Shown here: positions 6,360 through 19,907 of the stretch, piece by piece
Layout of the letters: the number at the start of each line of letters is the position of its first letter
How positions within the stretch are numbered: position 1 is the first letter of the stretch
Virus record (IMG/VR): IMGVR_UViG_3300013094_003682
Span: 1 to 22,446 of that record
Strand: one strand, 5' to 3'
Source: a virus
Length of the DNA stretch: 22,446 bases
Made by a program: the position numbers and the translations under genes
The notes under the pieces: model-generated
What the model was told of the DNA's origin: nothing
Database searches by the model: none
Seen by the model: only the letters and a program-made list of their open reading frames with translations

Positions 6360-6766
6360 CGAATAAGTCCGGGTAATGCCTCTACTACGTGTTGAAGGGT
6401 AATTCCTTTAAGGGGTTTCTTATCTTTAATATGACAAAGAAGCTCAGCGTCCTTGGGAGCTAAATTTTCAAGTAGTTGAACGAACATCGTTTCTCTTTTG
6501 TTTTGATTTAGATTATCGTGAAACCCTTTGATGAAATATCTAAGTTTCGTACATTCTCTAATTAGAACACCTTCCTGGTCGTTAAGATCGTTCGGCTTAT
6601 ATGGAGGTGCACCTTCTGGTAACAACCAAACAATAGAGGGATCGTAACATCCTTGAAGAACCACACGTAAAACCAAACTATCGTTGGCTTTTATTGCGGC
6701 TACTTTTTCTTCAGTTTTCTTGAGTTTCCCAACCTTTTCTAGGAACTCAGCTACACCAACCTGCAT
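6356..6766 (-). CDS. DUF6433-like conserved phage protein
   Basis: The protein has 136 residues. The pattern EEKVAAIKANDSLVLRVVLQGCYDPSIVWLLPEGAPPYKPN, shown here only as recognisable pieces (AAIKAND, LLPEGAPPY), matches the conserved T4-superfamily family usually called DUF6433. Function is unknown; in these phages it typically sits near replication and recombination genes. The ATG directly follows the RNase H stop codon, with GGAG at the end of that gene. Soluble, no membrane span. Confidence 0.78.
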   Translation of the reverse strand: MQVGVAEFLEKVGKLKKTEEKVAAIKANDSLVLRVVLQGCYDPSIVWLLPEGAPPYKPNDLNDQEGVLIRECTKLRYFIKGFHDNLNQNKRETMFVQLLENLAPKDAELLCHIKDKKPLKGITLQHVVEALPGLIR

Positions 6767-7606
6767 TTAGAAATCTCCAATATTTTCCATTAAATTTTTA
6801 AGTTTGTTGCTGATGAAATAATTCATCAACTTAGATTTATCTTTATTGTTTTGATTATTATATTGCTCTATAACCTTACTTCTAATTTCTTCTGGAGTAA
6901 AGTTAAGATCAATAAGCTCTTTATTACGTTGATAGTTTCTAGCTACCATACTATCGTATTTAGACGGGTCTAAATTCATATAATGATCGAATTTTTTAGA
7001 AGTCAACGGTTTCTGACGGTCCCCAACAACAAAGCAATTATCAGCAGAAAGTACGTTAGGTACGCCATCGCCAGAGTCACCTTTTAAAATATGTTCTTTA
7101 AGGAATTTTTGGGGATCGTTATGAGACAACCACTTTTTTCTAGTGGGGTCATATTGTTTAATGTTGTTGCGATTATGAAGTTGAACGAAATCTTTATCCC
7201 CAGAAAGTATAAGAATTTTATCGTCAAATTCTCTAACCAGAGTTCCTATAATATCGTCAGCCTCAGCAGATTCAACATCAATAACTCTATACGGGAAAAA
7301 TTCTTTGAGCTCTGCCCTAATCTTATTCATACATTCGAAAATAGATTTCCAATCTAACTCTGAAGCAAGACGATTCTTTTTACGGTTGGCTTTATAATAA
7401 GGAAAAGCTTGTTTACGCCAATAGTTTGTATTGTCGCAAGCAATAATCATTTCTCCATATTCATCACCAAACTTTGACTTATAAGAACGAAGCGAGTTGA
7501 GGACCATATGTCTAATCATATTTTCTTCAACTTGAGCGTTTGTATGGTTGCCTAGTTGCATCATAAGATTAGACAACATCACCTGAGACAGATCAACGAT
7601 AATCAA
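6767..7606 (-). CDS. rnh: T4-type RNase H, 5'-3' exonuclease
   Basis: The protein has 279 residues, close to T4 RNase H (about 305). FEN/5'-exonuclease landmarks are in order: MIIVDLSQ (catalytic Asp near 5), ACDNTNYWRK, ESAEADDIIGTL (clustered acidic metal ligands), LSGDKDF and the helix-hairpin segment GDSGDGVPN. In T4 this enzyme removes RNA primers and adjacent DNA during lagging-strand synthesis. The first codon is TTG, preceded by AGGTG five bases away, so a Met-only start would truncate the active site. It is the second gene of the unit driven from 8050. Confidence 0.9.
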   Translation of the reverse strand: MIIVDLSQVMLSNLMMQLGNHTNAQVEENMIRHMVLNSLRSYKSKFGDEYGEMIIACDNTNYWRKQAFPYYKANRKKNRLASELDWKSIFECMNKIRAELKEFFPYRVIDVESAEADDIIGTLVREFDDKILILSGDKDFVQLHNRNNIKQYDPTRKKWLSHNDPQKFLKEHILKGDSGDGVPNVLSADNCFVVGDRQKPLTSKKFDHYMNLDPSKYDSMVARNYQRNKELIDLNFTPEEIRSKVIEQYNNQNNKDKSKLMNYFISNKLKNLMENIGDF

Positions 7607-8066: not shown

Positions 8067-9065
8067 TTAGCAGCTGCTTGTTATTCTTGAACCGTAATCC
8101 GTGAAACCGAAATCGTAAATTTTACAGTTGGTGTCTCTAGTTACTGATTGTATCACTTTATCGCGATTATTGGGATCGACGTAAAATAAGAAGAAACCAC
8201 CACCGCCTGCACCGAGAAGTTTTCCGCCTAGAGCGCCAGCCTTTAGAGCTCTATCATATATCTGGTCGAAGTAGTCGTTAGTGATGTCGGCGGCGACACC
8301 CTTTTTATCCATCCACGCTTCATGGAGCAAACTACCGAAATCGTCGAGTTTATTTTCGCTCAGCAATTTTGCACCAATAAAAGCTTTATCTCTAGACCTT
8401 CTGACTAAGTCAAACTTATCTTTTTCGTTCATTGCAGCCGCTTGTTTCTGTAAAATAGAATTTGCATTACGTCCGCGACCAGAATAAACAAGTAACAATC
8501 TCCTTTCTAGATTACTCCAAAGATTTCGATCGTAAGTTAAAGGTTTAATATCAACAGAACCGTCACCATGAAACTCAAATAGGTTCATACCGCCATAAGC
8601 CGAGGCGTATTGATCTTGCTTACCGACTGGATACTTACATAGTTCTCGTTCGATATAATATGCCTTTTGAGCTAGATACTCGCGCGTCAACAACGAGTAA
8701 CGGCTCTGTTCGTCTCTATGCGCCAGACAATTAACCAGACCGATAGTGAAGGCCGAAGAAGATCCAAGTCCAGATCCTTTAGCTAAAATATCGGCGATCG
8801 AAGCGATCGTATACTCTTTAATCACGTCGTAGTGTTTCAAACTTTCTCTAGTAATAGCGTGTTGCATCTGTTCGACGTCGGGGAATTCTTCGATCGTGTC
8901 GTACATGATCTTAATTCCCAAATGAGGAGTCTTATGAAGCATCACGTAGATGTACTTATCAATCGTAACAGACAAAGCAGCGCCGCTTTCCTTTTCAAAG
9001 AAAGAAGGCATGTCGCTGCCGCCGGAAAAGAAACTAATACGCAAAGGCGTTTTAGAAAGAATCAT
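8067..9065 (-). CDS. hddA: GHMP kinase, heptose 7-phosphate kinase (HddA type)
   Basis: The protein has 332 residues, the usual length of HddA kinases. It starts ILSKTPLRISFFSGGSD, has the GHMP ATP-binding motif KGSGLGSSSAF (near 95-105), a segment GKQDQYASAYGG and the C-terminal glycine-rich AGALGGKLLGAGGGG. HddA phosphorylates D-glycero-D-manno-heptose 7-phosphate at C1. It is last in an operon with transaldolase, GmhA, GmhB, a nucleotidyltransferase and a glycosyltransferase, which supports this over related fucokinase or galactokinase-like members. Start and upstream stop overlap by one base (TAATG). Confidence 0.85.
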   Translation of the reverse strand: MILSKTPLRISFFSGGSDMPSFFEKESGAALSVTIDKYIYVMLHKTPHLGIKIMYDTIEEFPDVEQMQHAITRESLKHYDVIKEYTIASIADILAKGSGLGSSSAFTIGLVNCLAHRDEQSRYSLLTREYLAQKAYYIERELCKYPVGKQDQYASAYGGMNLFEFHGDGSVDIKPLTYDRNLWSNLERRLLLVYSGRGRNANSILQKQAAAMNEKDKFDLVRRSRDKAFIGAKLLSENKLDDFGSLLHEAWMDKKGVAADITNDYFDQIYDRALKAGALGGKLLGAGGGGFFLFYVDPNNRDKVIQSVTRDTNCKIYDFGFTDYGSRITSSC

Positions 9066-10069
9066 TAAATTGTCCTGTAAATAAATTTTTGTTGTGGCTT
9101 GCCACGAGACTCAACAGTCTTATATTTACCGAGTTGATCCTCAATCATCACATCCCACTTATGTTTGATTAGATTGATGTTGTAACGAGTATCAACAAAA
9201 ACCTTATTGAACATAATCATATTTTGTTCCTGATTGCTTTTCACAAAATTAATTGCATTATTCAGATGATTGATGAAAATATTCGCGTGATGATTTTTGT
9301 CCATAAGATCGGCATGATACATAAGATTCAATCCGCCAGAAGTTTCTGGTAATGCACCAACATCAGAATGAACACAGACCAATCCAGCTGACATAGCTTC
9401 TAACATAGCTCTACAGCTGGTTTCGTACCAAATACTTGGATAAGCAAAAATATGAGCCTTGTTCAACGCTTCCTTCAATTCTTCATTAGGAACGTATCCA
9501 TGATAAGTCATTTGAGGATGATTTCTGATTTGATCATACATAGGCTCAAACGACTTATCAGCATCTTCCCAACCGTAAATCTTAAAACTTGAATATACAT
9601 CTAGATGAATTTCTGGATGCATCTTCGCCAATGAATCAAACACCGGCAAAAGAATTTCCAATCCTCTTTGCGGGGTTGAAGTGTACACCAATCGAATCTT
9701 GTCTTTTGGTTTAACCAAAGCTGATTGTGGCGCTGGTTCAATACCGGATTCAATTACGATTGACTTAGGATCGTGAGCCAATCCATGAATTAGCTGATAC
9801 CTTTGCATCTGCCAGTTAGAAATAAAAACAAACTTATGATAGTTATCCCTAAAAGATTGATCCCTGAACTTCGCCGATTCAGGATCTTCTGGTAGATCAT
9901 GACACCAGAAAACTCTAATTTTTTCCCAATTTAGTTCGCGTTCCCTTGAACATACAATTTGAAATTCTTCCAAATCTTTTGGATTAATTAGAGAAGCTAG
10001 CTTACGTTTAGCAAGCTCAGTTCCGCCGTTAGCCTTTATAGAAATTTCGTTTTCTTCAAATCCAATCAT
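9065..10069 (-). CDS. GT4-family glycosyltransferase
   Basis: The protein has 334 residues. The donor-binding half shows the GT4 (GT-B fold) pattern: RLVYTSTPQRGLEILL, then YHGYVPNEELKEAL and IFAYPSIWYETSCRAMLEAMSAG, which includes the E-x7-E motif. The N-terminal half has NGGTELAKRKL and FWCHDLPED. No signal or membrane span, so it acts in the cytoplasm. ATGA overlaps with the transaldolase gene couple translation. The donor is probably the NDP-heptose made by the same operon; the acceptor (LPS, capsule, protein or DNA) cannot be read. Confidence 0.85.
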   Translation of the reverse strand: MIGFEENEISIKANGGTELAKRKLASLINPKDLEEFQIVCSRERELNWEKIRVFWCHDLPEDPESAKFRDQSFRDNYHKFVFISNWQMQRYQLIHGLAHDPKSIVIESGIEPAPQSALVKPKDKIRLVYTSTPQRGLEILLPVFDSLAKMHPEIHLDVYSSFKIYGWEDADKSFEPMYDQIRNHPQMTYHGYVPNEELKEALNKAHIFAYPSIWYETSCRAMLEAMSAGLVCVHSDVGALPETSGGLNLMYHADLMDKNHHANIFINHLNNAINFVKSNQEQNMIMFNKVFVDTRYNINLIKHKWDVMIEDQLGKYKTVESRGKPQQKFIYRTI

Positions 10070-10797
10070 ATTGTGTACCCCGATTTAATAGCATCATTAT
10101 AGAACATTTGGCAAGTTTCTTTAGAAAATTGTGTTAAATCTTTACCGAAACCCTTAACCTTTTTGATGAGATCAGGAGTCATGGTTATAATATCACAACC
10201 GGACCATTCGGCGTGTTTAATGTTATAAGCTTCTCTAGAAGAAGCCCATAGAAATTCTGCTTTACCGCCTTCGTTTCTAATATCATCATACAAACCAACA
10301 CAACGAGAAACAATTGATTCCGGATCTTCACCAGCGTCCGCAATACGACCAGCGAAAATTGAAATTATACTAGGAACTTCTGGGCAAAATCTATCGATTA
10401 TATTGCTTACTTGATATTCGGTAAAAACCGCAGTAACGTTAAGATTAATTCCTTCATAACTTAAACTTTGAATCAAATCATAAGTATCTTCGCCCGAAGT
10501 ATACATGACAGGAATTTTTACATATACTTGATAATTCTTTTCGTTACCCCAATCACTGATAATTCTAGCTTGTCGACGAATTTCGTCAGGTTCATCGGCG
10601 AACACTTCTAAACTTAGAGTTGTTTCGGGCCTATTCCTTGCCAAAAATTTAATAACGTTTTTGGCAAATTCTTCATAATTCATAACGCCAGCTTGACGCA
10701 TCAAAGTTGGATTAGTTGTAAACCCCGTTATTGTTTTATCTCCAGCCGCATCGATTATTCCCACCATATCGGCGCCATCGGCGTATAATTTAATCAT
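10066..10797 (-). CDS. tal: Transaldolase-like enzyme
   Basis: The protein has 243 residues, similar to the short transaldolase/fructose-6-phosphate aldolase subfamily. Motifs are GFTTNPTLMRQAG (25-37), LSLEVFAD (61-68) and QVYVKIPV, in which Lys94 is the expected Schiff-base residue, then INLNVTAVFT and ISIFAGRIAD. Transaldolase forms or uses sedoheptulose 7-phosphate, the first substrate of heptose synthesis, which fits the next genes. Cyanophages carry a similar short transaldolase as a carbon-flow gene, but here the company is heptose enzymes. Overlaps both neighbours by four bases. Confidence 0.85.
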   Translation of the reverse strand: MIKLYADGADMVGIIDAAGDKTITGFTTNPTLMRQAGVMNYEEFAKNVIKFLARNRPETTLSLEVFADEPDEIRRQARIISDWGNEKNYQVYVKIPVMYTSGEDTYDLIQSLSYEGINLNVTAVFTEYQVSNIIDRFCPEVPSIISIFAGRIADAGEDPESIVSRCVGLYDDIRNEGGKAEFLWASSREAYNIKHAEWSGCDIITMTPDLIKKVKGFGKDLTQFSKETCQMFYNDAIKSGYTI

Positions 10798-11324
10798 TTA
10801 TTAATCTCCTCAATCAAGGTACAAGCTTCTAAAACATTAGAAACAATATAATCAGGTTGTATATTTCTATATTCGTAAGGGTATGTGTATTCTTCACCAA
10901 CGAAAATAGTTTTTAGTTTGCTTCTATTACCAGCAACTATATCTTTCCAACGATCACCTATTATATAGGATTTACTACGATCGATCAAGTATTTTTTAAT
11001 TATATCTTCAATCATACCGTTGTTGGGTTTATACATATTGGAATTTCTATCGTCAGCGTAGTATATATCATCTATTCTCAACCAATTAGAAATCATTCTA
11101 TGCATATTATCTAAATCTTTGTAAGACAATGGACCTTTGACGTCAGGTTGATTTGTTACAACAAAAGTTTTATAGTCCATATTTCTGACGATATTCACCG
11201 CTACTTTAACATTATCAATAAATTGAAACTCGTCGAGAAACCAAGGGGCTGTTTTAGAACCATCTGGTCTTTCGACGAGTTTATTAATTACACCATCACG
11301 ATCAAAAAAAATTGCTCGATTCAT
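10794..11324 (-). CDS. gmhB: HAD phosphatase, GmhB-like (heptose bisphosphatase)
   Basis: The protein has 176 residues and is of the histidinol-phosphatase/GmhB type: FFDRDGVIN (catalytic Asp8 and Asp10), VVTNQPDV (motif II Thr) and YIIGDRWKDIVAG (motif IV). GmhB removes the C7 phosphate of heptose 1,7-bisphosphate. The loop that normally carries the zinc-binding Cys/His cluster reads YYADDRNSNMYKPNNGM here and has no cysteine, so this form is probably zinc-free. It lies directly after GmhA and overlaps transaldolase, so the pathway role is well supported. Confidence 0.8.
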   Translation of the reverse strand: MNRAIFFDRDGVINKLVERPDGSKTAPWFLDEFQFIDNVKVAVNIVRNMDYKTFVVTNQPDVKGPLSYKDLDNMHRMISNWLRIDDIYYADDRNSNMYKPNNGMIEDIIKKYLIDRSKSYIIGDRWKDIVAGNRSKLKTIFVGEEYTYPYEYRNIQPDYIVSNVLEACTLIEEINK

Positions 11325-11325
11325 T

Positions 11326-11910
11326 TCACCACTTTGTTTTATTAACCTGTAAAGAAGGATTGGAAACTATAGCATGCCAAATAACAGCTTGAAAAGCTTC
11401 GCTATGTGGCGTGATTCTAGAAGGTTGAATAGGAGGAACTACTACACAATAATCAGCGTTGTAAGCGGTGTATCCGTCTTTCTTACCGACTATACCCAAT
11501 ACGACGGCGTTTTTTGATTTTGCTTGATCGATGGCCTTAATTAATCCTACAGAAACGTTTTTATTCTTATCGCCACCACCAACAGATAAAATAAAAAGAG
11601 CATCTTTTGAACTTAACTTACTGATTTTAAGATATTCATCAAATACGGTGTCAAACCCTTCGTCATTTGTTCTAGCAGTAAGCTCTGGAACGTTATCTGT
11701 GGGGCAATAAGACTCGATACCACAAAGCTTACGTAGGTCGTTGACCAGGTGAGAAGCGTTTCCTGCTGATCCTCCAACACCGAGAACGAAAACCCTCCCG
11801 TTTGATTCTCTGACTCTTTTGAGAGCGGCAACTAACTTCTCCACCATATTTTTATCTATAGCTTCGGTAATAGAAACTACTTCTTCAAAGTATTTATCAC
11901 TAAAACTCAT
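11326..11910 (-). CDS. gmhA: SIS-domain sedoheptulose 7-phosphate isomerase
   Basis: The protein has 194 residues, the standard GmhA length. A helical N-terminus precedes the SIS domain, with VLGVGGSAGNASHLVNDLRK (sugar-phosphate loop), an acidic segment with ELTARTNDEGF, ILSVGGGDKNKNV, and a C-terminal helix TPHSEAFQAVIWHAIV. GmhA converts sedoheptulose 7-phosphate to D-glycero-D-manno-heptose 7-phosphate. GAGG lies ten bases before the ATG. It overlaps the nucleotidyltransferase gene by 11 bases and precedes the phosphatase gene, giving a continuous heptose operon. Confidence 0.88.
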   Translation of the reverse strand: MSFSDKYFEEVVSITEAIDKNMVEKLVAALKRVRESNGRVFVLGVGGSAGNASHLVNDLRKLCGIESYCPTDNVPELTARTNDEGFDTVFDEYLKISKLSSKDALFILSVGGGDKNKNVSVGLIKAIDQAKSKNAVVLGIVGKKDGYTAYNADYCVVVPPIQPSRITPHSEAFQAVIWHAIVSNPSLQVNKTKW

Positions 11911-12310
11911 TCAACTTATTCCTCAATCTAGAAGAGCTCCACCGGTGGAATCTCTTATTGTAAATTATTTCAATATTTCTATGAATACAAAGAGCTTGAC
12001 CAGTATGTACTTCCCCGTAATGATCATAACCTATAAATCTTTTTTGAATGTCTATGATACTTAGTAAATTTTCTAGATCACCTTCAGTCTCGTAGGGATA
12101 TATCTCGTCTACGTAACGAATAGATTTGAGTTGTATAAACCTTTCGAGCAAACTTTGAACGGGTTTATTTTTTAATTTTGGTCTGTCGATAGTCGGATCG
12201 GTTTGTAGACCGACGATCAGCCTGTCACATTGACTACGACATTCTTCAAGCATAGCGCAATGACCAGCATGAAGAATATCAAATGTACCACACGTAAATC
12301 CAGTAATCAC
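11900..12310 (-). CDS. Cytidylyltransferase-fold nucleotidyltransferase (HldE/TagD type)
   Basis: The protein has 136 residues. TCGTFDILHAGH has the nucleotidyltransferase HxGH motif (14-17), followed by RLIVGLQTDPTIDRPK, a ligand region FIGYDHYG, and the C-terminal RWSSSRLRNKL in place of the ISTT-type motif. Size and motifs match TagD and the HldE C-terminal domain. In this operon it most likely joins heptose 1-phosphate to a nucleotide; whether ATP, CTP or another cannot be decided. It starts with GTG in a GTGA overlap with the SpeD-like gene. Confidence 0.82.
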   Translation of the reverse strand: MITGFTCGTFDILHAGHCAMLEECRSQCDRLIVGLQTDPTIDRPKLKNKPVQSLLERFIQLKSIRYVDEIYPYETEGDLENLLSIIDIQKRFIGYDHYGEVHTGQALCIHRNIEIIYNKRFHRWSSSRLRNKLNEF

Positions 12311-15391: not shown

Positions 15392-15411
15392 GATGTAGAC
15401 TTTCAAAATAG

Positions 15412-15487
15412 TGGTTGTCCTACCGGGAATTGAACCCAGATCTGACGCTTATAAGGCGCCTGCTCTAACCGATTGAGCTATAGGACG
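15412..15487 (-). tRNA. tRNA-Ile(UAU)
   Basis: D stem GCTC/GAGC, anticodon arm GGCGC/GCGTC with loop CTTATAA (anticodon UAU), T arm CTGGG/CCCGG with loop TTCAATT, and encoded CCA. The acceptor stem CGTCCTA/TAGGACA has six pairs and an initiator-like C1·A72 mismatch. Reads AUA codons, common in AT-rich genomes. Its 5' 23 bases overlap the end of an endonuclease gene. Confidence 0.88.
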
Positions 15488-16151
15488 ATAATTTACTAAT
15501 TATATCATAATTCTGTTTTTTTATTAAGTCAATTTCTTTTTGTTTGATTACTAATATTTTTTTATCTAATTGGCTCCATTTAGCCCTATCACGATCTGTT
15601 TCATATCCCTTTACTTCAATATAACAATTATATTCTTCAATTAAAAAATCTGGAAAATATAAATGCCAATCATCATTCCAAAAATAAGAAATTGGTTTTA
15701 TATTACTTCTGATCCATTTAATATTATTTTTATCTAAAAATTTTGCAACTTCATATTCCCAAGTGCTATTAAATCTAACACCATCGATTGTAAAATGTTT
15801 TGATCTTCCAACTATGTTTTTATCAGAATAAGATTCTGGGTGTTCTAATACCGCCTTTTTCATTATTTTTGAATGTTTTTTTCTATTTTCAGGATTAGAA
15901 TAGTATTCTTTTGTTTTTATAGAAGCTTTTTGTCTTTGTTCTAAAGAAGCGGGAGGACACAATAATCTTTTTTGTCTTTGTTTTTCTTTATATTCAGGCG
16001 ATTGATGAAAATCAAATTTAATTTCTATTCCCGCTTCTTTTCGTTTTTGAATCCAAGTTTTTTCTTTATTTGTATTTTCTTTACATAGTCTCTCATGATT
16101 TCTTAAAGAATTCAAATTTTTCTTTAATTGATTGCAGAATTTACATTTCAT
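15465..16151 (-). CDS. Homing-type endonuclease, PD-(D/E)XK with zinc finger
   Basis: The protein has 228 residues. An N-terminal CxxC...HxxxC finger (Cys3, Cys6, His19, Cys23) is followed by NUMOD-like basic repeats (about 75-110) and a C-terminal nuclease core. The core has NSTWEYEVAKFL, then PDF (167-169) and EVKGY (Glu179, Lys181), a PD-(D/E)XK/Vsr-like active site. It sits between a tRNA half and tRNA-Ile, and its last codons and stop lie inside the tRNA, as if it had moved next to it. A leader hairpin covers its AGGAG, and an exact late box overlaps that hairpin. Confidence 0.78.
   Translation of the reverse strand: MKCKFCNQLKKNLNSLRNHERLCKENTNKEKTWIQKRKEAGIEIKFDFHQSPEYKEKQRQKRLLCPPASLEQRQKASIKTKEYYSNPENRKKHSKIMKKAVLEHPESYSDKNIVGRSKHFTIDGVRFNSTWEYEVAKFLDKNNIKWIRSNIKPISYFWNDDWHLYFPDFLIEEYNCYIEVKGYETDRDRAKWSQLDKKILVIKQKEIDLIKKQNYDIISKLSSYSSIG
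15504..15532 (-). promoter_or_regulatory. Promoter for tRNA-Ile inside the endonuclease gene
   Basis: TTGACT (15532-15527) and TATGAT (15509-15504) on the minus strand have a 17-nt spacer. It lies within the last codons of the endonuclease gene, about 17 bases before the tRNA 5' end, so the tRNA can be made without reading through the endonuclease gene. Confidence 0.75.
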
Positions 16152-16154
16152 ATA

Positions 16155-16183
16155 AAATACTCCTATTAATTATAGAAGTATTT
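16155..16183 (-). promoter_or_regulatory. Leader hairpin covering the endonuclease ribosome site
   Basis: On the minus strand AAATACTTCTAT (16183-16172) pairs with ATAGGAGTATTT (16166-16155) over 12 positions with one wobble and a 5-nt loop. The 3' arm contains AGGAG, the Shine-Dalgarno site nine bases before the ATG at 16151. Confidence 0.75.
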
Positions 16184-16186
16184 ATA
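16179..16186 (-). promoter_or_regulatory. T4-type late box overlapping the hairpin
   Basis: TATAAATA on the minus strand is an exact T4 late octamer. The predicted start is near 16173, which removes nearly all of the 5' hairpin arm and frees the ribosome site, as known for T4 I-TevI and lysozyme mRNAs. Confidence 0.65.
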
Positions 16187-16200
16187 AAAATTAAATTTTA

Positions 16201-16234
16201 AAGAGCGACCGGCTTCACCTTTAAGCTACGCGCC
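16201..16234 (-). pseudogene. tRNA 5' half before the endonuclease
   Basis: On the minus strand GGCGCG, T8-A9, a D stem GCTT/AAGC and the first strand of an anticodon arm (GGTCG) with CTCTT can be followed, then the likeness stops in AT-rich DNA. No matching 3' half was found nearby. It looks like the 5' half of a tRNA cut at the anticodon loop, possibly tRNA-Lys(CUU), left when the endonuclease gene arrived. Confidence 0.5.
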
Positions 16235-16242
16235 TGTATTAT

Positions 16243-16731
16243 TTAAGCAGCAATACTTTCGTTGTTCGTTAGAATTTCCTTCAAACGATCAGCACAAAAT
16301 GAAGCTGCTGGTGCCTCTGGCTTAACCTTTGGAGTAACACCACACATACCACGAATATAACCAGTTGCCTGTGTGATAACACAAGACGAACCATGCATTT
16401 CGTTTGGATTGATATCAAGGTGCAACTCGAAATGACGATCACCAATGGCTTCGGCAAGGTCGATATACATCTGAGCAGCACGATAAACTTCGTTCATCAG
16501 ACGAAAAGCTGGCTTTTCTTTCTTCTGATCAAAATCACGTTCTACATCTGACTTACCAAATACCTTACAACCCTTGTTGCCATCAATATGAACAACAATA
16601 GCCACAGTATAATCAGCATACCAAACCTCATTCTTACGATAACGTTCGGAATCAGCGCCGATATAAATCTTTGTCTCGTTAGAAGAATTCTTGATGAAAT
16701 CAATTACTTCCTTAAGATCAAACTCTTTCAT
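16243..16731 (-). CDS. RNase H-fold protein, YkuK/DUF458 type
   Basis: The protein has 162 residues. KIYIGADSERYRK, ADYTVAIVVHIDGNKGCKVFG, RLMNEVYRAAQMY, FELHLDINPNEMHGSS and VKPEAPAASFCAD follow the DUF458 (YkuK) pattern, a predicted RNase H-like nuclease with acidic residues in the first strand and in HLDIN. The substrate is unknown. AAGGTG lies before the ATG. The final segment has rather different base composition from the adjacent endonuclease gene, consistent with the latter being the newcomer. Confidence 0.8.
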   Translation of the reverse strand: MKEFDLKEVIDFIKNSSNETKIYIGADSERYRKNEVWYADYTVAIVVHIDGNKGCKVFGKSDVERDFDQKKEKPAFRLMNEVYRAAQMYIDLAEAIGDRHFELHLDINPNEMHGSSCVITQATGYIRGMCGVTPKVKPEAPAASFCADRLKEILTNNESIAA

Positions 16732-16758
16732 TTTACACCTTTTCAGTTTTATTAAAAT

Positions 16759-17289
16759 TTATTCGTGTTCGTACTCTTCAACATCAATACCATTTTTGGT
16801 AACCGCAACACACACATGATCACCAAACAGGTTTTGATAAACTTCTGATGGAATAGAGTATAACATCTTTTCAACAACTTTACAAGTCTCTGAAATATGT
16901 TTCATACGTTCCGAAGATGGAAGTTCTACGCCTTCCATACCAATATAACAATAGTATGGATCATCTCCATACAAAATAATTGAATATTCTTCCGCATATC
17001 CGCCACCATTTTCTTTCCATTCTTGCATCATAAAATCAGGAACAAACCAAAAATCATCAACCCTAAAAACACAAGTATCACCATCATTAAAATATGGCGT
17101 ATATTGCGTCCAAGTAATAGCTGCAATCTCAGGAACAATTTCAAAAAATTCCTTAAAAGCAGAATTCAAAGCTTCCTCGGAATCCTTACGCATTTTTTCC
17201 TGCATAATTTTCATTTGAAGACTCATTTGACTAATTTTATATTCAAAATTCTTACCAATTTCATTAATCTTATTTAGATCGATAACCAT
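16759..17289 (-). CDS. Conserved phage hypothetical protein
   Basis: The protein has 176 residues. The first 50 residues are a probable coiled coil (KINEIGKNFEYKISQMSLQM). A mixed domain rich in aromatic and acidic residues follows (ITWTQYTPYFNDGDTCVFRV, YGDDPYYCYIG), then a C-terminal helix. I recognise similar phage proteins but no function. AAGGAG lies seven bases before the ATG. It is in a leftward series of genes of unrelated type with individual ribosome sites. Confidence 0.72.
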   Translation of the reverse strand: MVIDLNKINEIGKNFEYKISQMSLQMKIMQEKMRKDSEEALNSAFKEFFEIVPEIAAITWTQYTPYFNDGDTCVFRVDDFWFVPDFMMQEWKENGGGYAEEYSIILYGDDPYYCYIGMEGVELPSSERMKHISETCKVVEKMLYSIPSEVYQNLFGDHVCVAVTKNGIDVEEYEHE

Positions 17290-17301
17290 AATATATCTCC
17301 T

Positions 17302-17697
17302 TTAGGCCACTTCGTCAATAGTATCATTTTTGGATGGATCGCGGTTTAATTTAGCATACGAAGATTTACGACGATTACGCATTGTTCCGCTCATCCAAGG
17401 TTGGATTTGCATATTCTTAAGGTAATTTTCCATTGTCGGAATAAAACCTAAATCCTCGATGATATGATCCTCGGCCACGTCTCTAACTGATACGTCTTTA
17501 CCTTGTGAGTTTTTAAAATAAGTTCCAAAAACTTTTTCGACAAGATAACAACCGAATGCAGAATGCAATATAGCACGGTGCCTTACATCTGGACAAGCTG
17601 ATTTGGTCGAATCCATAAAGTCATGAATAGGAAGATAATCTTCAATCACACCACCGTATTTACGCACAGAAGATTTAGAGTGGATCAGCGGTTTCAT
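17302..17697 (-). CDS. DUF6915-like conserved protein
   Basis: The protein has 131 residues. MKPLIHSKSSVRKYGGVIEDYLPIH, then RHRAILHSAFGCYLVEKVFG, then SVRDVAEDHIIEDLGFIPT and IQPWMSG, shown here in pieces, match a family I know as DUF6915. Conserved His and Asp/Glu residues (HSAFG, EDHIIEDLG) could bind metal. Function unknown. AAGGA precedes the ATG by six bases. Confidence 0.72.
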   Translation of the reverse strand: MKPLIHSKSSVRKYGGVIEDYLPIHDFMDSTKSACPDVRHRAILHSAFGCYLVEKVFGTYFKNSQGKDVSVRDVAEDHIIEDLGFIPTMENYLKNMQIQPWMSGTMRNRRKSSYAKLNRDPSKNDTIDEVA

Positions 17698-17721
17698 AAT
17701 ATATCCTTATGTAAAAAGGTA

Positions 17722-17811
17722 TTACTTCTTCTTATTACGACGAGCCCTACGCTTCTTAGAACCAACCTTACGGCGACCCTTACGCGGGCGATTCTTATGC
17801 GGATGACTCAT
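17722..17811 (-). CDS. 29-residue very basic peptide
   Basis: The reading frame starts MSHPHKNRPRKGRRK and continues VGSKKRRARRNKKK; about two thirds of residues are Lys, Arg or His. GGAG at the end of the upstream small gene lies nine bases before the ATG, so it is translated as part of that unit. Composition suggests nucleic-acid binding or charge neutralisation, as in ribosomal or head-internal peptides. No family recognised. Confidence 0.6.
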   Translation of the reverse strand: MSHPHKNRPRKGRRKVGSKKRRARRNKKK

Positions 17812-17812
17812 G

Positions 17813-17917
17813 TTACAGTTCTCCATTCTTCTTCATTTGAATCCAAAGAGCCTTACCAGCATCTTTACCAAACTTATTCTGCATCTTAATCAACTTCTTA
17901 TGTGCCTTCTTATTCAT
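17813..17917 (-). CDS. 34-residue basic peptide
   Basis: The frame starts MNKKAHKKLIKMQNKFGKDA and ends IQMKKNGEL. AGGAGG lies five bases before this ATG; an adjacent ATG at 17920 is too close to it. The gene overlaps the end of the upstream gene by eight bases and its stop is one base before the next ATG. The peptide is probably a single amphipathic basic helix. No family recognised. Confidence 0.62.
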   Translation of the reverse strand: MNKKAHKKLIKMQNKFGKDAGKALWIQMKKNGEL

Positions 17918-18179
17918 CATTACCTCCTTCGAAAATATCAACAAACTCAGTTTTACGTTGTTCGTCACTTGTATAATACTCTAGAACGCGCTTAAAACAT
18001 TCAAGATATATCATATCGTCTTGTAAGTCTCTTACTTCATGTTGACGAATCGACTCCTTAGATAAGAACCTATCTATCTCTTCGATAAGAGTTCTTGCCG
18101 AATCTGCTAGACTTTGGATTAGCACAGTTTCCTCAAGCGAACTAAAGGCTTCGGGTGTCAATTCCAACATAACTTTCAT
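17910..18179 (-). CDS. Helical, possibly coiled-coil small protein
   Basis: The protein has 89 residues, acidic and almost all helical (SLEETVLIQSLADSARTLIE, then EVRDLQDDMIYLECFKRVLE), ending in an acidic tail. GGAG spaced seven bases from position 18179 picks this ATG. The frame stays open upstream only because it runs through tRNA-Leu. No family recognised. It follows the tRNA directly, so it may share its transcript. Confidence 0.68.
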   Translation of the reverse strand: MKVMLELTPEAFSSLEETVLIQSLADSARTLIEEIDRFLSKESIRQHEVRDLQDDMIYLECFKRVLEYYTSDEQRKTEFVDIFEGGNDE

Positions 18180-18200
18180 CATATATCTCCGATCAGAAAT

Positions 18201-18279
18201 TGGTGCCCGTGGTGGGATTCGAACCCACACTGTATTGATTTTAAGTCAATTGCCTACTAACCTGTTGGGCTACACGGGC
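18201..18279 (-). tRNA. tRNA-Leu(UAA), short variable loop
   Basis: The acceptor stem GCCCGTG/CACGGGC is perfect, the anticodon arm ATTGA/TCAAT has loop CTTAAAA (anticodon UAA), the T arm GTGGG/CCCAC has loop TTCGAAT, and CCA is encoded. The variable loop is only five bases (ACAGT), although Leu tRNAs normally have a long arm; the D loop is large. Its first bases provide the stop codon of the HNH gene. Confidence 0.88.
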
Positions 18280-18896
18280 GTTAATAATTTATAAGCTCTA
18301 TCGTAATTTTTACCTTTGGGTGTTAACCCAACTTCGAGTAAAGCTTGTCTTATATTACTATGTTTTTTAAGAGAAGTCAATAATTTTTCATCAGAAACTT
18401 TCATTTTACCATTATTTATGTTTTTACCTCTATAAAACTTTGTTTTAGCATGACAATTTGGACATAATAACAATAAATTATTTTTTATATTATTTAGATT
18501 ATCACCGTCACAATGTTCCAATTCTAGAGGTATAGGTTCGTTTAACCATTCTGACAAATTACAAGATTCACATTTATAACCTCGTTCCTTTATTAAGACT
18601 TTTTTGTGTGATCCTTTACCATTATAAGAAAAATCAGCATTATATTTTTCTTTGTTCCAATTCATTTTTCTTTTAGATTCTTCTGACGTATTTAAATATC
18701 TGTTAATGTTTTTATATTTTTGATACGCTTTTATAGAACCTTCACTATTTTTTCTTCTAATTTCTGGACATTTTGTTGCTCTAATTTCGCACATCAATTT
18801 ATTAGACCCATTTCTGAATCTAGCAATATTACCACATCCGTAAGAACATAATTCTGTTGTTTCTATATTTTCTGCTATTCTTTTCAATTTTATCAT
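18270..18896 (-). CDS. HNH homing endonuclease
   Basis: The protein has 208 residues. An N-terminal Cys-rich part (ELCSYGCGNIARF, then KCPEIRRKNSEG) is followed by the HNH domain, with Cys109/Cys112, LELEHCDGD with the catalytic His128, NLNNIKNNLLLLCPNCH with Cys145/Cys148 and His149, then a C-terminal helix-turn-helix-like segment. It is a T4-like free-standing homing endonuclease. The stop codon TAG is formed by bases 8-10 of tRNA-Leu. A CGCC/GGCG hairpin ends two bases before the ATG and no good ribosome site is free, so translation from long transcripts should be weak. Confidence 0.85.
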   Translation of the reverse strand: MIKLKRIAENIETTELCSYGCGNIARFRNGSNKLMCEIRATKCPEIRRKNSEGSIKAYQKYKNINRYLNTSEESKRKMNWNKEKYNADFSYNGKGSHKKVLIKERGYKCESCNLSEWLNEPIPLELEHCDGDNLNNIKNNLLLLCPNCHAKTKFYRGKNINNGKMKVSDEKLLTSLKKHSNIRQALLEVGLTPKGKNYDRAYKLLTPV

Positions 18897-18898
18897 TC

Positions 18899-18911
18899 CG
18901 CCAAGGGGGCG
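18899..18911 (-). promoter_or_regulatory. Leader hairpin at the HNH gene start
   Basis: On the minus strand CGCC (18911-18908) pairs with GGCG (18902-18899) around CCCTT, two bases before the ATG. A late-like box TATAAAAA (18923-18916) would start transcription near 18910, inside the 5' arm. Confidence 0.5.
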
Positions 18912-18922
18912 TCTATTTTTAT

Positions 18923-18951
18923 ATACTACCCTATTTCTTCAGGAAAGTCAA
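18923..18951 (-). promoter_or_regulatory. Sigma70-like promoter of the HNH/tRNA-Leu unit
   Basis: TTGACT (18951-18946) and TAGTAT (18928-18923) on the minus strand have a 17-nt spacer. The start near 18917 leaves the whole CGCC/GGCG hairpin in the RNA. Confidence 0.7.
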
Positions 18952-19028: not shown

Positions 19029-19499
19029 ATGTTTATTTATTACGTATACGCATATCTTCGAGAAGATGGTACGCCATATTATATTGGCAAGGGCAAAAAT
19101 AAAAGAGCTTTCTCTAAAGATCATAGTTGCGAAATTCCATCAGATAAATCTAAAATCGTTTTCTTAGAACGTAATTTATCTGAAATCGGAGCTTTTGCTT
19201 TAGAGAGAAAATACATCGCTTGGTATGACCGTTCAAACCTTCTCAATAAAACAGATGGTGGTGATGGAACCACAGGAGCTACATTTTCTTTAGAATCTCG
19301 TCAACGTATGAGTAAAATGCGTAAAGGGATTCCTAAGAAACCGTTTTCTGAAGAAACTCGATTAAAAATGCGATTAGCAAAATTAGGCAAAAAACAATCA
19401 GAAAAACATAAAGAAAATCTCAGTAAAGTTCGAAAAGGAAGAACTTTAAGCGAAGAACATAAAGCCAAAATTAAAGCTGCTTTTGCTTCAAAAAAGTAA
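19029..19499 (+). CDS. GIY-YIG homing endonuclease with NUMOD3 repeats
   Basis: The protein has 156 residues. MFIYYVYAYLREDGTPYYIGKGK has the GIY-YIG motif in the form YVY...YIG, followed by the catalytic-type FALERKYIAWY and LLNKTDGGDG. The C-terminal part carries NUMOD3-like DNA-binding repeats (SLESRQRMSKMRKG, FSEETRLKMRLAKLG, LSEEHKAKIKAAF). AGGAGG seven bases upstream fixes the start at 19029 over an earlier in-frame ATG. It is the only plus-strand gene in this half of the window and converges on a second GIY-YIG gene with a 29-base overlap. Confidence 0.88.
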   Translation: MFIYYVYAYLREDGTPYYIGKGKNKRAFSKDHSCEIPSDKSKIVFLERNLSEIGAFALERKYIAWYDRSNLLNKTDGGDGTTGATFSLESRQRMSKMRKGIPKKPFSEETRLKMRLAKLGKKQSEKHKENLSKVRKGRTLSEEHKAKIKAAFASKK

Positions 19500-19878
19500 G
19501 ATGTTTTTTGTGAACACGACACATTATATGAGAGTTGTACCATTCGTCCGAAAAAAGCACAGCATTTTCAAACTGATATTTTGCCTCGTAATATGTCGCT
19601 TCTCCTTTGGATTTACAGAGACGAATTATTTCACGAGTAAAACTATTTTCGCCGTATTTTTTAACGTCTTCCTGAAGATCTTCGGAAGAACCAAAATATG
19701 ATTTCCAATCCGATTCAACTTTGGTTCTTTTTTTCTTTCCCTTAACTTGTTTAGTTTTCAGAAAAAAGAAAGTTTTCTTTCCGATATATTTTCTATTGTT
19801 TGCAGTATTAGTTATTATATACACAAACGAAGTATATTCATTATTAAATTCATATTCTTTATTTTCGTAAATCCACAT
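19471..19878 (-). CDS. GIY-YIG endonuclease, Seg-like
   Basis: The protein has 135 residues. SFVYIITNTANNRKYIGKKTF is the GIY-YIG core; SDWKSYFGSSEDLQEDVKKYG, FTREIIRLCKSKGEATYYEAKYQ and NAVLFSDEWYNSHI match a family common in T4-like phages. No separate DNA-binding repeat is visible, so it may be a minimal nuclease. GGAG spaced six bases selects the ATG at 19878 over 19890. A perfect 9-bp hairpin places that GGAG in the loop edge and part of the ATG in the stem. Unrelated in sequence to the convergent GIY-YIG gene beyond the core motif. Confidence 0.85.
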   Translation of the reverse strand: MWIYENKEYEFNNEYTSFVYIITNTANNRKYIGKKTFFFLKTKQVKGKKKRTKVESDWKSYFGSSEDLQEDVKKYGENSFTREIIRLCKSKGEATYYEAKYQFENAVLFSDEWYNSHIMCRVHKKHLTFLKQKQL

Positions 19879-19907
19879 CCCAAACTCCATTGTTTGGGAT
19901 ATTTAGT
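19877..19907 (-). promoter_or_regulatory. Hairpin and late-like box at the GIY-YIG start
   Basis: On the minus strand ATCCCAAAC (19900-19892) pairs perfectly with GTTTGGGAT (19885-19877), with loop AATGGA. The last two stem bases are the AU of the start codon, and GGAG lies at the loop edge. ACTAAATA (19907-19900) resembles a late box; its start near 19894 would remove most of the 5' arm. Confidence 0.6.

Follow-up and report, generated by a model that had tools for sequence, protein, structure and literature searches.

Why should two unrelated endonuclease genes of one phage both end inside tRNA genes? The question is posed by the IMG/VR virus record IMGVR_UViG_3300013094_003682, whose 22,446 bases (hereafter the window) come from a T4-like phage, with T4 RNase H and PhoH-like genes, and include a tRNA array detected with ARAGORN. 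Features of the window lie on its minus strand unless another strand is given. A gene for a PD-(D/E)XK homing-type endonuclease of 228 amino acids with an N-terminal C2H2-like zinc finger (15465-16151; endonuclease in PHROGs, phrog_15137, 1.4e-28) ends 23 nucleotides into tRNA-Ile(TAT) (15412-15487; ARAGORN, Rfam RF00005 65.3 bits), its stop being the TAG of the D-loop sequence GGTTAG. Similarly, an HNH endonuclease gene of 208 amino acids (18270-18896; HNH endonuclease in PHROGs, phrog_14736, 1.7e-28, and phrog_10822) ends 10 nucleotides into tRNA-Leu(TAA) (18201-18279; ARAGORN, RF00005 64.5 bits), with its stop formed by T8-A9-G10. An earlier note on this sequence had pointed out both overlaps, which the coordinates confirm, as well as the presence of two unrelated nuclease families at tRNA genes, which also stands. 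The two endonuclease genes have a low GC content (25.5% and 27.0%, respectively, vs. 37% in 26 other genes of the window). Judging from the sequences, each looks as though it lies at a broken older tRNA, and we consider it likely that endonuclease and following tRNA form one mobile cassette, in which a free-standing homing endonuclease breaks a tRNA gene and carries a putative substitute for it: a natural self-spreading element that brings its own replacement.

The argument begins with an empty allele of the PD-(D/E)XK locus. The neighbouring RNase H-like gene occurs at 99-100% protein identity in eight contigs, seven of which also carry the PD-(D/E)XK gene and one of which, L009, with flanks 98-99% identical to those of the window, does not. 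At the site of the endonuclease, L009 has a single intact tRNA(CAT) (584-658; RF00005 53.9 bits). On the upstream side the two sequences are identical over the compared stretch (98/98) and on through tRNA base C34, where they diverge; on the downstream side identity returns at base 73, the discriminator base (right junction ACCACTATTTT, 15405-15415, placed by comparison with L009), and holds at 64 of 65 positions of the aligned stretch. What lies between these junctions is, in L009, the 3′ half of its tRNA and, in the window, the endonuclease followed by tRNA-Ile(TAT), which L009 lacks. The break point is therefore in the anticodon, C34|A35, with the 3′ half lost and the 5′ half kept upstream of the endonuclease as a relic that forms the left end of the cassette (16203-16235, the first 33 nucleotides up to C34, the first anticodon base; 33/33 identical to L009). 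Because the halves of the L009 tRNA pair in the acceptor stem (AGGCGCG/CGCGCCT), a pairing that could not be recreated by deletion, the intact tRNA(CAT) is most simply read as older than the occupied form of the window. The PD-(D/E)XK gene accordingly has occupied and empty collinear alleles at one site, as is expected of a free-standing homing endonuclease, and tRNA-Ile(TAT) appears either to have come with the endonuclease or to have been added to it.

This comparison alters what had been proposed for the locus. The earlier note took mobile endonucleases to have inserted at the 5′ ends of the present tRNAs, leaving these intact, and held that empty-site genomes without a junction at the tRNA 5′ end would speak against it. 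L009 is such a genome: its tRNA is a different one, intact, and the junction with the window falls at the anticodon of that tRNA. In its exact form the claim therefore fails, whereas the more general notion that insertion is directed to tRNA genes gains support. Relatives lacking the endonuclease, whose junctions were to be mapped as a check, are represented by L009 for the PD-(D/E)XK gene and by none for the HNH gene.

The lost tRNA(CAT) was probably a tRNA-Ile2. Its loop, CTCATAA, agrees with that of the phage tRNA-Ile whose position 34 carries lysidine, and the corresponding CAT tRNAs of the phages Abraxas and Aeh1 are annotated as tRNA-Ile or similar to tRNA-Ile. The CAU tRNAs of T4-like phages are described, in the part of the source available, as highly conserved and as sharing common signatures recognised by IleRS (PMC1524935). 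If so, AUA is read both by the tRNA(CAT) that was lost and by the tRNA-Ile(TAT) gained in its place; this codon accounts for 22% of Ile codons in 26 genes of the window and would now presumably be translated by tRNA-Ile(TAT). The only other CAT tRNA found in a 78.9-kb record near-identical to the window has a different loop.

A similar trace precedes the HNH gene, where the first 16 nucleotides of a class II tRNA-Leu (GCCCCCTTGGCGGAAT, 18895-18910) match the tRNA-Leu(TAG) of contig L092 exactly (16/16); this relic also holds the beginning of the HNH start codon (18896-18894), and the tRNA downstream of the gene, with anticodon TAA, is Leu like the relic. When both strands of the window, with real tRNAs masked, were searched with 973 16-mers from tRNA 5′ ends, exact matches were found only at 16235(-) and 18910(-), directly ahead of the two endonuclease genes; the first is a match to L009's own tRNA. 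The reversed window sequence, used as a control, gave no match at 0 or 1 mismatches. Ahead of the tRNA-Leu relic lies a sigma-70-like promoter, TTGACT-17-TAGTAT (18923-18951), identified by consensus match only. Among other sequences, L096 combines the 5′ half of a tRNA-Leu with an HNH gene in antisense and a full tRNA-Leu (left out of the counts below), and T-even phage ACG-C40 has an HNH relative directly upstream of a tRNA-Leu with no relic visible. The tRNA-Leu(TAA) of the window has no long variable arm (class I shape), vs. the class II look of the relic, and similar short TAA tRNAs occur in L010-L012.

To place the PD-(D/E)XK locus in its family we assembled 50 loci, comprising the window, 34 of the 80 loci from one search (L117-L150) and 15 others, with 145 other open reading frames (ORFs) of the same loci as controls. 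The weaker, mostly shorter matches L151-L196 lie outside this set, as do L087 and L091 (L134 is the same contig as L087); ORF borders were adjusted by hand in L092, L106, L118, L124, L126 and L134. A 5′ tRNA piece scoring above the best control (33.3 bits) lies upstream in 18 of the 50 family loci and in none of the 145 controls. The set includes near-duplicates, and after clustering at 80% protein identity the figures are 15/45 and 0/145 (p 5e-11). Joining the flanks of the ORF yields a tRNA in ARAGORN in 11/49 loci (L089, whose ORF runs off the contig, being excluded) vs. 2/143 controls, and a complete tRNA starts between -45 and +60 of the stop in 27/50 vs. 23/143.

Where break points could be read, they fall in the anticodon region: CAT tRNAs are broken behind C34 or one base further along (window, L087, L101, L102, L105, L106, L128, L129, L131) and Asn tRNAs behind T33 (L086, L130, L137, L140). 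Relic and substitute are of the same kind in all four of these Asn loci and, for CAT, in L087, L128, L129, L131, L133, L119 and the phages PhaxI, Kuja and cp19, so a full tRNA beside a relic is usually of the relic's kind; in L092, L100, L145 and the Arg clade we assigned the relics by reading short pieces ourselves. Three architectures recur. The endonuclease may simply split a tRNA into its two halves; it may be preceded by a 5′ half and followed by a full tRNA, as in the window; or endonuclease and full tRNA may be enclosed by both halves (L119, L145), which places them together inside one tRNA. In a variant of the last (L149, L150) a full tRNA-Arg(TCT) stands ahead of the endonuclease and both target halves are kept. 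In a tree of the family (leaving out L089, L106, L108, L132, L134, L143, L147, and also L118 and L124, whose adjusted borders were out of frame) the Asn-target loci form one clade (100/100), and the first two architectures are scattered over the tree.

Relatives of the PD-(D/E)XK gene were also found in 50 GenBank phage records, ten of which were examined closely (L098-L106, L116) together with the more distant L108. A single tRNA(CAT) is split by the gene at C34|A35, or right beside it, in each of AB-Navy97, AsFcp_1, PX29 and CkP1; in PX29, where the automatic downstream match fell elsewhere and the 3′ half was read separately from the sequence, the gene is broken by an in-frame stop. AB-Navy97 differs from the empty AB-Navy4 (flank identity 355/360 and 398/404; Abraxas is a further empty allele), and AsFcp_1 from the empty Aeh1 (236/280 and 302/348), by a clean insertion at the same point with a junction overlap of 1 bp, so that clean insertions at the tRNA(CAT) anticodon are seen in both Acinetobacter and Aeromonas phages. 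PhaxI, S115, Kuja and cp19 have a 5′ relic of 24-27 nucleotides, the gene and a full tRNA(CAT), with the gene ending at tRNA base 10; set against dinky and BSP101, PhaxI shows the relic plus a new tRNA(CAT). IME341 combines a partial relic with tRNA-Arg(TCT), and in IME13, where no relic was seen, a full tRNA stands ahead of the gene and a tRNA-like end follows it.

HNH genes show comparable arrangements beyond the window. An HNH gene of L052 has a tRNA-Pro 5′ piece upstream and tRNA-Pro(TGG) downstream, and six of eleven loci with its relatives lie at tRNA-Pro(TGG) (L201, the same contig as L052, L202-L205 and L209), with Pro-like upstream pieces, whole or worn, that end in TTTG, CTTG or CTTGG as read by eye; the other five lie at other tRNAs. 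This second family thus appears to act like the PD-(D/E)XK family, with relic and substitute both Pro.

Relics, break points and substitute tRNAs, along with empty alleles for the PD-(D/E)XK family only, can be read directly in these sequences, and no recognisable intron accompanies them. Under the mechanism that we propose, the endonuclease would cut an intact phage tRNA gene (for the PD-(D/E)XK enzyme, within the tRNA(CAT) anticodon loop at C34|A35), after which a cassette-bearing phage would serve as template for the repair. Homology on the left would be provided by the upstream flank together with the 5′ half of the tRNA, and on the right by what follows the tRNA. In this way the recipient would gain the endonuclease and a complete substitute tRNA, retain the old 5′ half as a relic and lose the 3′ half. 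Since the substitute would read the same codon with a different sequence, the phage would keep its decoding ability and the cassette should escape its own enzyme. Over 30 nucleotides around the break, lost and substitute tRNAs are identical at 15 positions in the window pair and at 19 in PhaxI, a difference that suggests such resistance. Cleavage at the proposed site, homing and resistance of the substitute are steps that we infer.

Several observations weigh against this account. No relic above threshold is present in 32 of the 50 family loci, some of which look decayed or differently arranged while others show nothing, and L090 is a clear exception, with a Thr-like relic beside tRNA-Trp. The empty allele of the window is one 6.8-kb contig. 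No empty HNH allele was found, as two DNA patterns retrieved the same five contigs, all with the HNH start (5/5); the HNH half of the case is consequently carried by its relic, and for the history of that locus beyond the relic our reading is conjectural. The substitute is missing at the site in AB-Navy97, AsFcp_1, PX29 and CkP1, and is therefore not obligatory. In AB-Navy97, the 24 kb examined include no further tRNA annotated as CAT. Finally, the PhaxI substitute retains the CTCATAA loop and is identical at 14 of 20 positions within 10 nucleotides of the break, so its resistance is unproven.

Some of these points favour the best-surviving alternative, in which a plain free-standing homing endonuclease enters tRNA anticodon loops and the following tRNA is a neighbour, or a later repair by recombination with the tRNAs of other phages. 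The clean insertions without a substitute in AB-Navy97 and AsFcp_1 fit it, as does the scatter of both forms over the tree, and dense tRNA arrays make a neighbouring tRNA common, as the 23 control ORFs with one at their stop attest. We nevertheless regard it as unlikely, because the tRNA that follows mostly shares the kind of the relic where this could be resolved, L119 and L145 hold endonuclease and tRNA between the halves of a single tRNA, and the window and the empty allele differ jointly in endonuclease and tRNA.

Insertion at the 5′ end of the present tRNA, which would be left intact, is very improbable. The ORFs do end inside the present tRNAs, and in Kuttervirus STP07 another HNH gene (L114, 894-1307) stops at base 10 of a tRNA(CAT) and shows no 5′ relic. 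However, the empty allele of the window has another tRNA with its break in the anticodon, which refutes this reading for the PD-(D/E)XK locus unless the L009 contig is misassembled. The STP07 tRNA, moreover, matches that of its empty relative BSP101 at 35/43 of the 5′ columns and 33/33 of the 3′ half; with the differences confined to the 5′ 43 columns, the 5′ part of the tRNA seems replaced even there.

A group I intron that carries its endonuclease in a tRNA anticodon loop and restores the tRNA by splicing can be given scarcely any credence. Known tRNA introns occupy the same region, and I-Ssp6803I, an intron endonuclease for the anticodon region of tRNA-fMet, has the same broad PD-(D/E)XK fold as the window endonuclease; the target of both would be the anticodon region of a CAT tRNA. 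Yet I-Ssp6803I is encoded in a group I intron, and none was found here: the four split-tRNA loci contain no group I intron down to E 10 in a scan in which the tRNA-Leu of the virus contig L088 was positive (6695-6993, RF00028, 55.4 bits, after the tRNA-Leu 5′ half). The 3′ half is gone in the window, and endonuclease stops at or inside the 3′ half leave little room for a ribozyme core. I-Ssp6803I was also not among the sequence matches of a PDB profile search with the PD-(D/E)XK protein. The L088 tRNA-Leu half, considered as a relic, was rejected as part of an intron-split tRNA; the phage introns known by 2014 all lay in protein genes, according to the portion of the source available (PMC3984707). 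An integrase-type element at a tRNA attachment site, which should show an integrase gene and a direct repeat of the tRNA 3′ end, was dismissed on account of the single endonuclease ORF in the insert, the 1-bp junction overlap and the 5′ half kept by the broken tRNA.

Returning to the overlaps with which we began, the absence of a spacer between endonuclease and tRNA in the proposed cassette means that the reading frame runs on to a stop codon within the new tRNA. We rejected the idea that such a stop is a special signal, as other ORFs in related tRNA arrays end likewise (e.g., L038, L047, L064, L069, L078); any ORF without a spacer tends to end at the TAG of bases 8-10 or at a D-loop stop, and a stop in the 5′ end of a tRNA is weak evidence when taken alone. 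The tRNA array of the 78.9-kb record yielded no CTA suppressor tRNA, and TAG is therefore probably a real stop. CTA-anticodon tRNAs do occur in related phages, where they are labelled tRNA-Pyl and may be amber suppressors (L102, L023, L035, L036, L039, L040, L065, L080). As for a tRNA-Ile promoter within the PD-(D/E)XK gene, also put forward earlier, a fitting sequence exists (TTGACT-17-TATGAT, 15532-15504), but promoter-like sites are no commoner in the window than in shuffled sequence (18 vs. 16.6, sd 4.5), which leaves its function as a promoter unproven.

PHROGs, profile and fold searches agree on a nuclease domain of the homing-endonuclease type in the PD-(D/E)XK protein. The profile search matched T7 endonuclease I (2.2e-7, residues 121-184) and C2H2 zinc fingers. 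An AlphaFold2 model of the 228 residues (mean pLDDT 87.3, pTM 0.54) had as its best predicted fold match in the PDB the phage homing endonuclease I-Bth0305I (3r3p; probability 1.00, E 9.4e-3, TM 0.65 by target length), with no match at E <= 0.001; I-Bth0305I is not known to be linked to tRNA genes. In the leader, TATAAATA (16179-16186, read from the sequence) resembles a T4-type late promoter, and a similar sequence lies between relic and start codon in most loci read. A hairpin is predicted over the ribosome-binding site AGGAG (16160-16164) at 16152-16188 (fold z -3.95), and such hairpins recur in four leaders (window, AB-Navy97, CkP1, PhaxI) with z of -3.9 to -5.6. The available text on T4 segB and mobE describes a late promoter combined in the same way with a hairpin that covers the ribosome-binding site (PMC2988022). 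SegB resembles the present enzymes further in being a free-standing phage endonuclease in a tRNA array; it differs in being a GIY-YIG enzyme that sits between tRNA genes and not inside one, and neither substitute tRNA nor relic is described in the portions of the sources available (PMC2988022, PMC13096335).

The principle of replacement homing is already known, by analogy, from the WHO homing elements of yeast, whose target is FBA1 and for which cleavage has been shown; as far as the available part of the source goes, the mobile unit there joins an endonuclease to a resistant form of a portion of its target gene, and the old target end is left next to it as a fragment (PMC7282813). The WHO target is protein-coding, the enzyme is intein-like with a zinc finger, and it is the 3′ end that is replaced, whereas here a phage tRNA is the target, the enzyme is PD-(D/E)XK or HNH, and usually a whole substitute tRNA stands with a 5′ relic, all as read from the sequences. 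A carried target version beside an old relic is seen, as layout only, in the window, PhaxI, L119, L145, L149 and L150, with L090 as the exception. We would say that the phage cassettes work like WHO elements and claim no membership, as the nuclease classes differ. Synthetic home-and-rescue gene drives, in which a useful gene is destroyed by a nuclease that also brings a rescue copy, are likewise similar, but are engineered, Cas9-based and built in insects, according to the part of the source available (PMC7968924). Endonucleases inserted in phage tRNA anticodons were not found as a subject in the open-licence literature, judged by title and the start of the abstract.

Some further features deserve mention. 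The window has a NUMOD3/GIY-YIG-like endonuclease-like gene at 19029-19499 (+) and a SegE-like GIY-YIG gene at 19471-19890 (-), making four endonuclease-like genes within about 4.4 kb, and a run of sugar-metabolism-like genes at 8067-12310 (-; GHMP kinase, glycosyltransferase, transaldolase, SIS isomerase). L090 contains a GOLLD RNA with a tRNA inside (9798-10263, 152.4 bits). Pieces of the 5′ tRNA D-arm also occur without an endonuclease, at 653-680 in the window and in L032, L035, L038, L039, L040, L052 (7456), L014 (8635) and L077 (851); several are followed by a conserved GTAAAAAGNATCCTGTTG-like stretch, and they may be relics or leader elements.

On a wider view, widespread natural home-and-rescue drives may operate in phage tRNA arrays, with at least two unrelated families (PD-(D/E)XK and HNH) destroying tRNAs at the anticodon and carrying a recoded tRNA for the same codon, even replacing tRNA-Ile2(CAU) by tRNA-Ile(UAU), and their cycling may be a main cause of tRNA gene turnover in phages; for this larger proposition we see the chances as evenly divided. 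If true, it would supply a concrete mechanism for the endonuclease-rich and changeable tRNA arrays of phages, in which tRNAs would be both target and cargo, and the odd gene overlaps would be explained as a by-product of spacer-less fusion. Such elements would be the natural counterpart, in phages and at RNA genes, of yeast WHO replacement homing and of engineered rescue drives.

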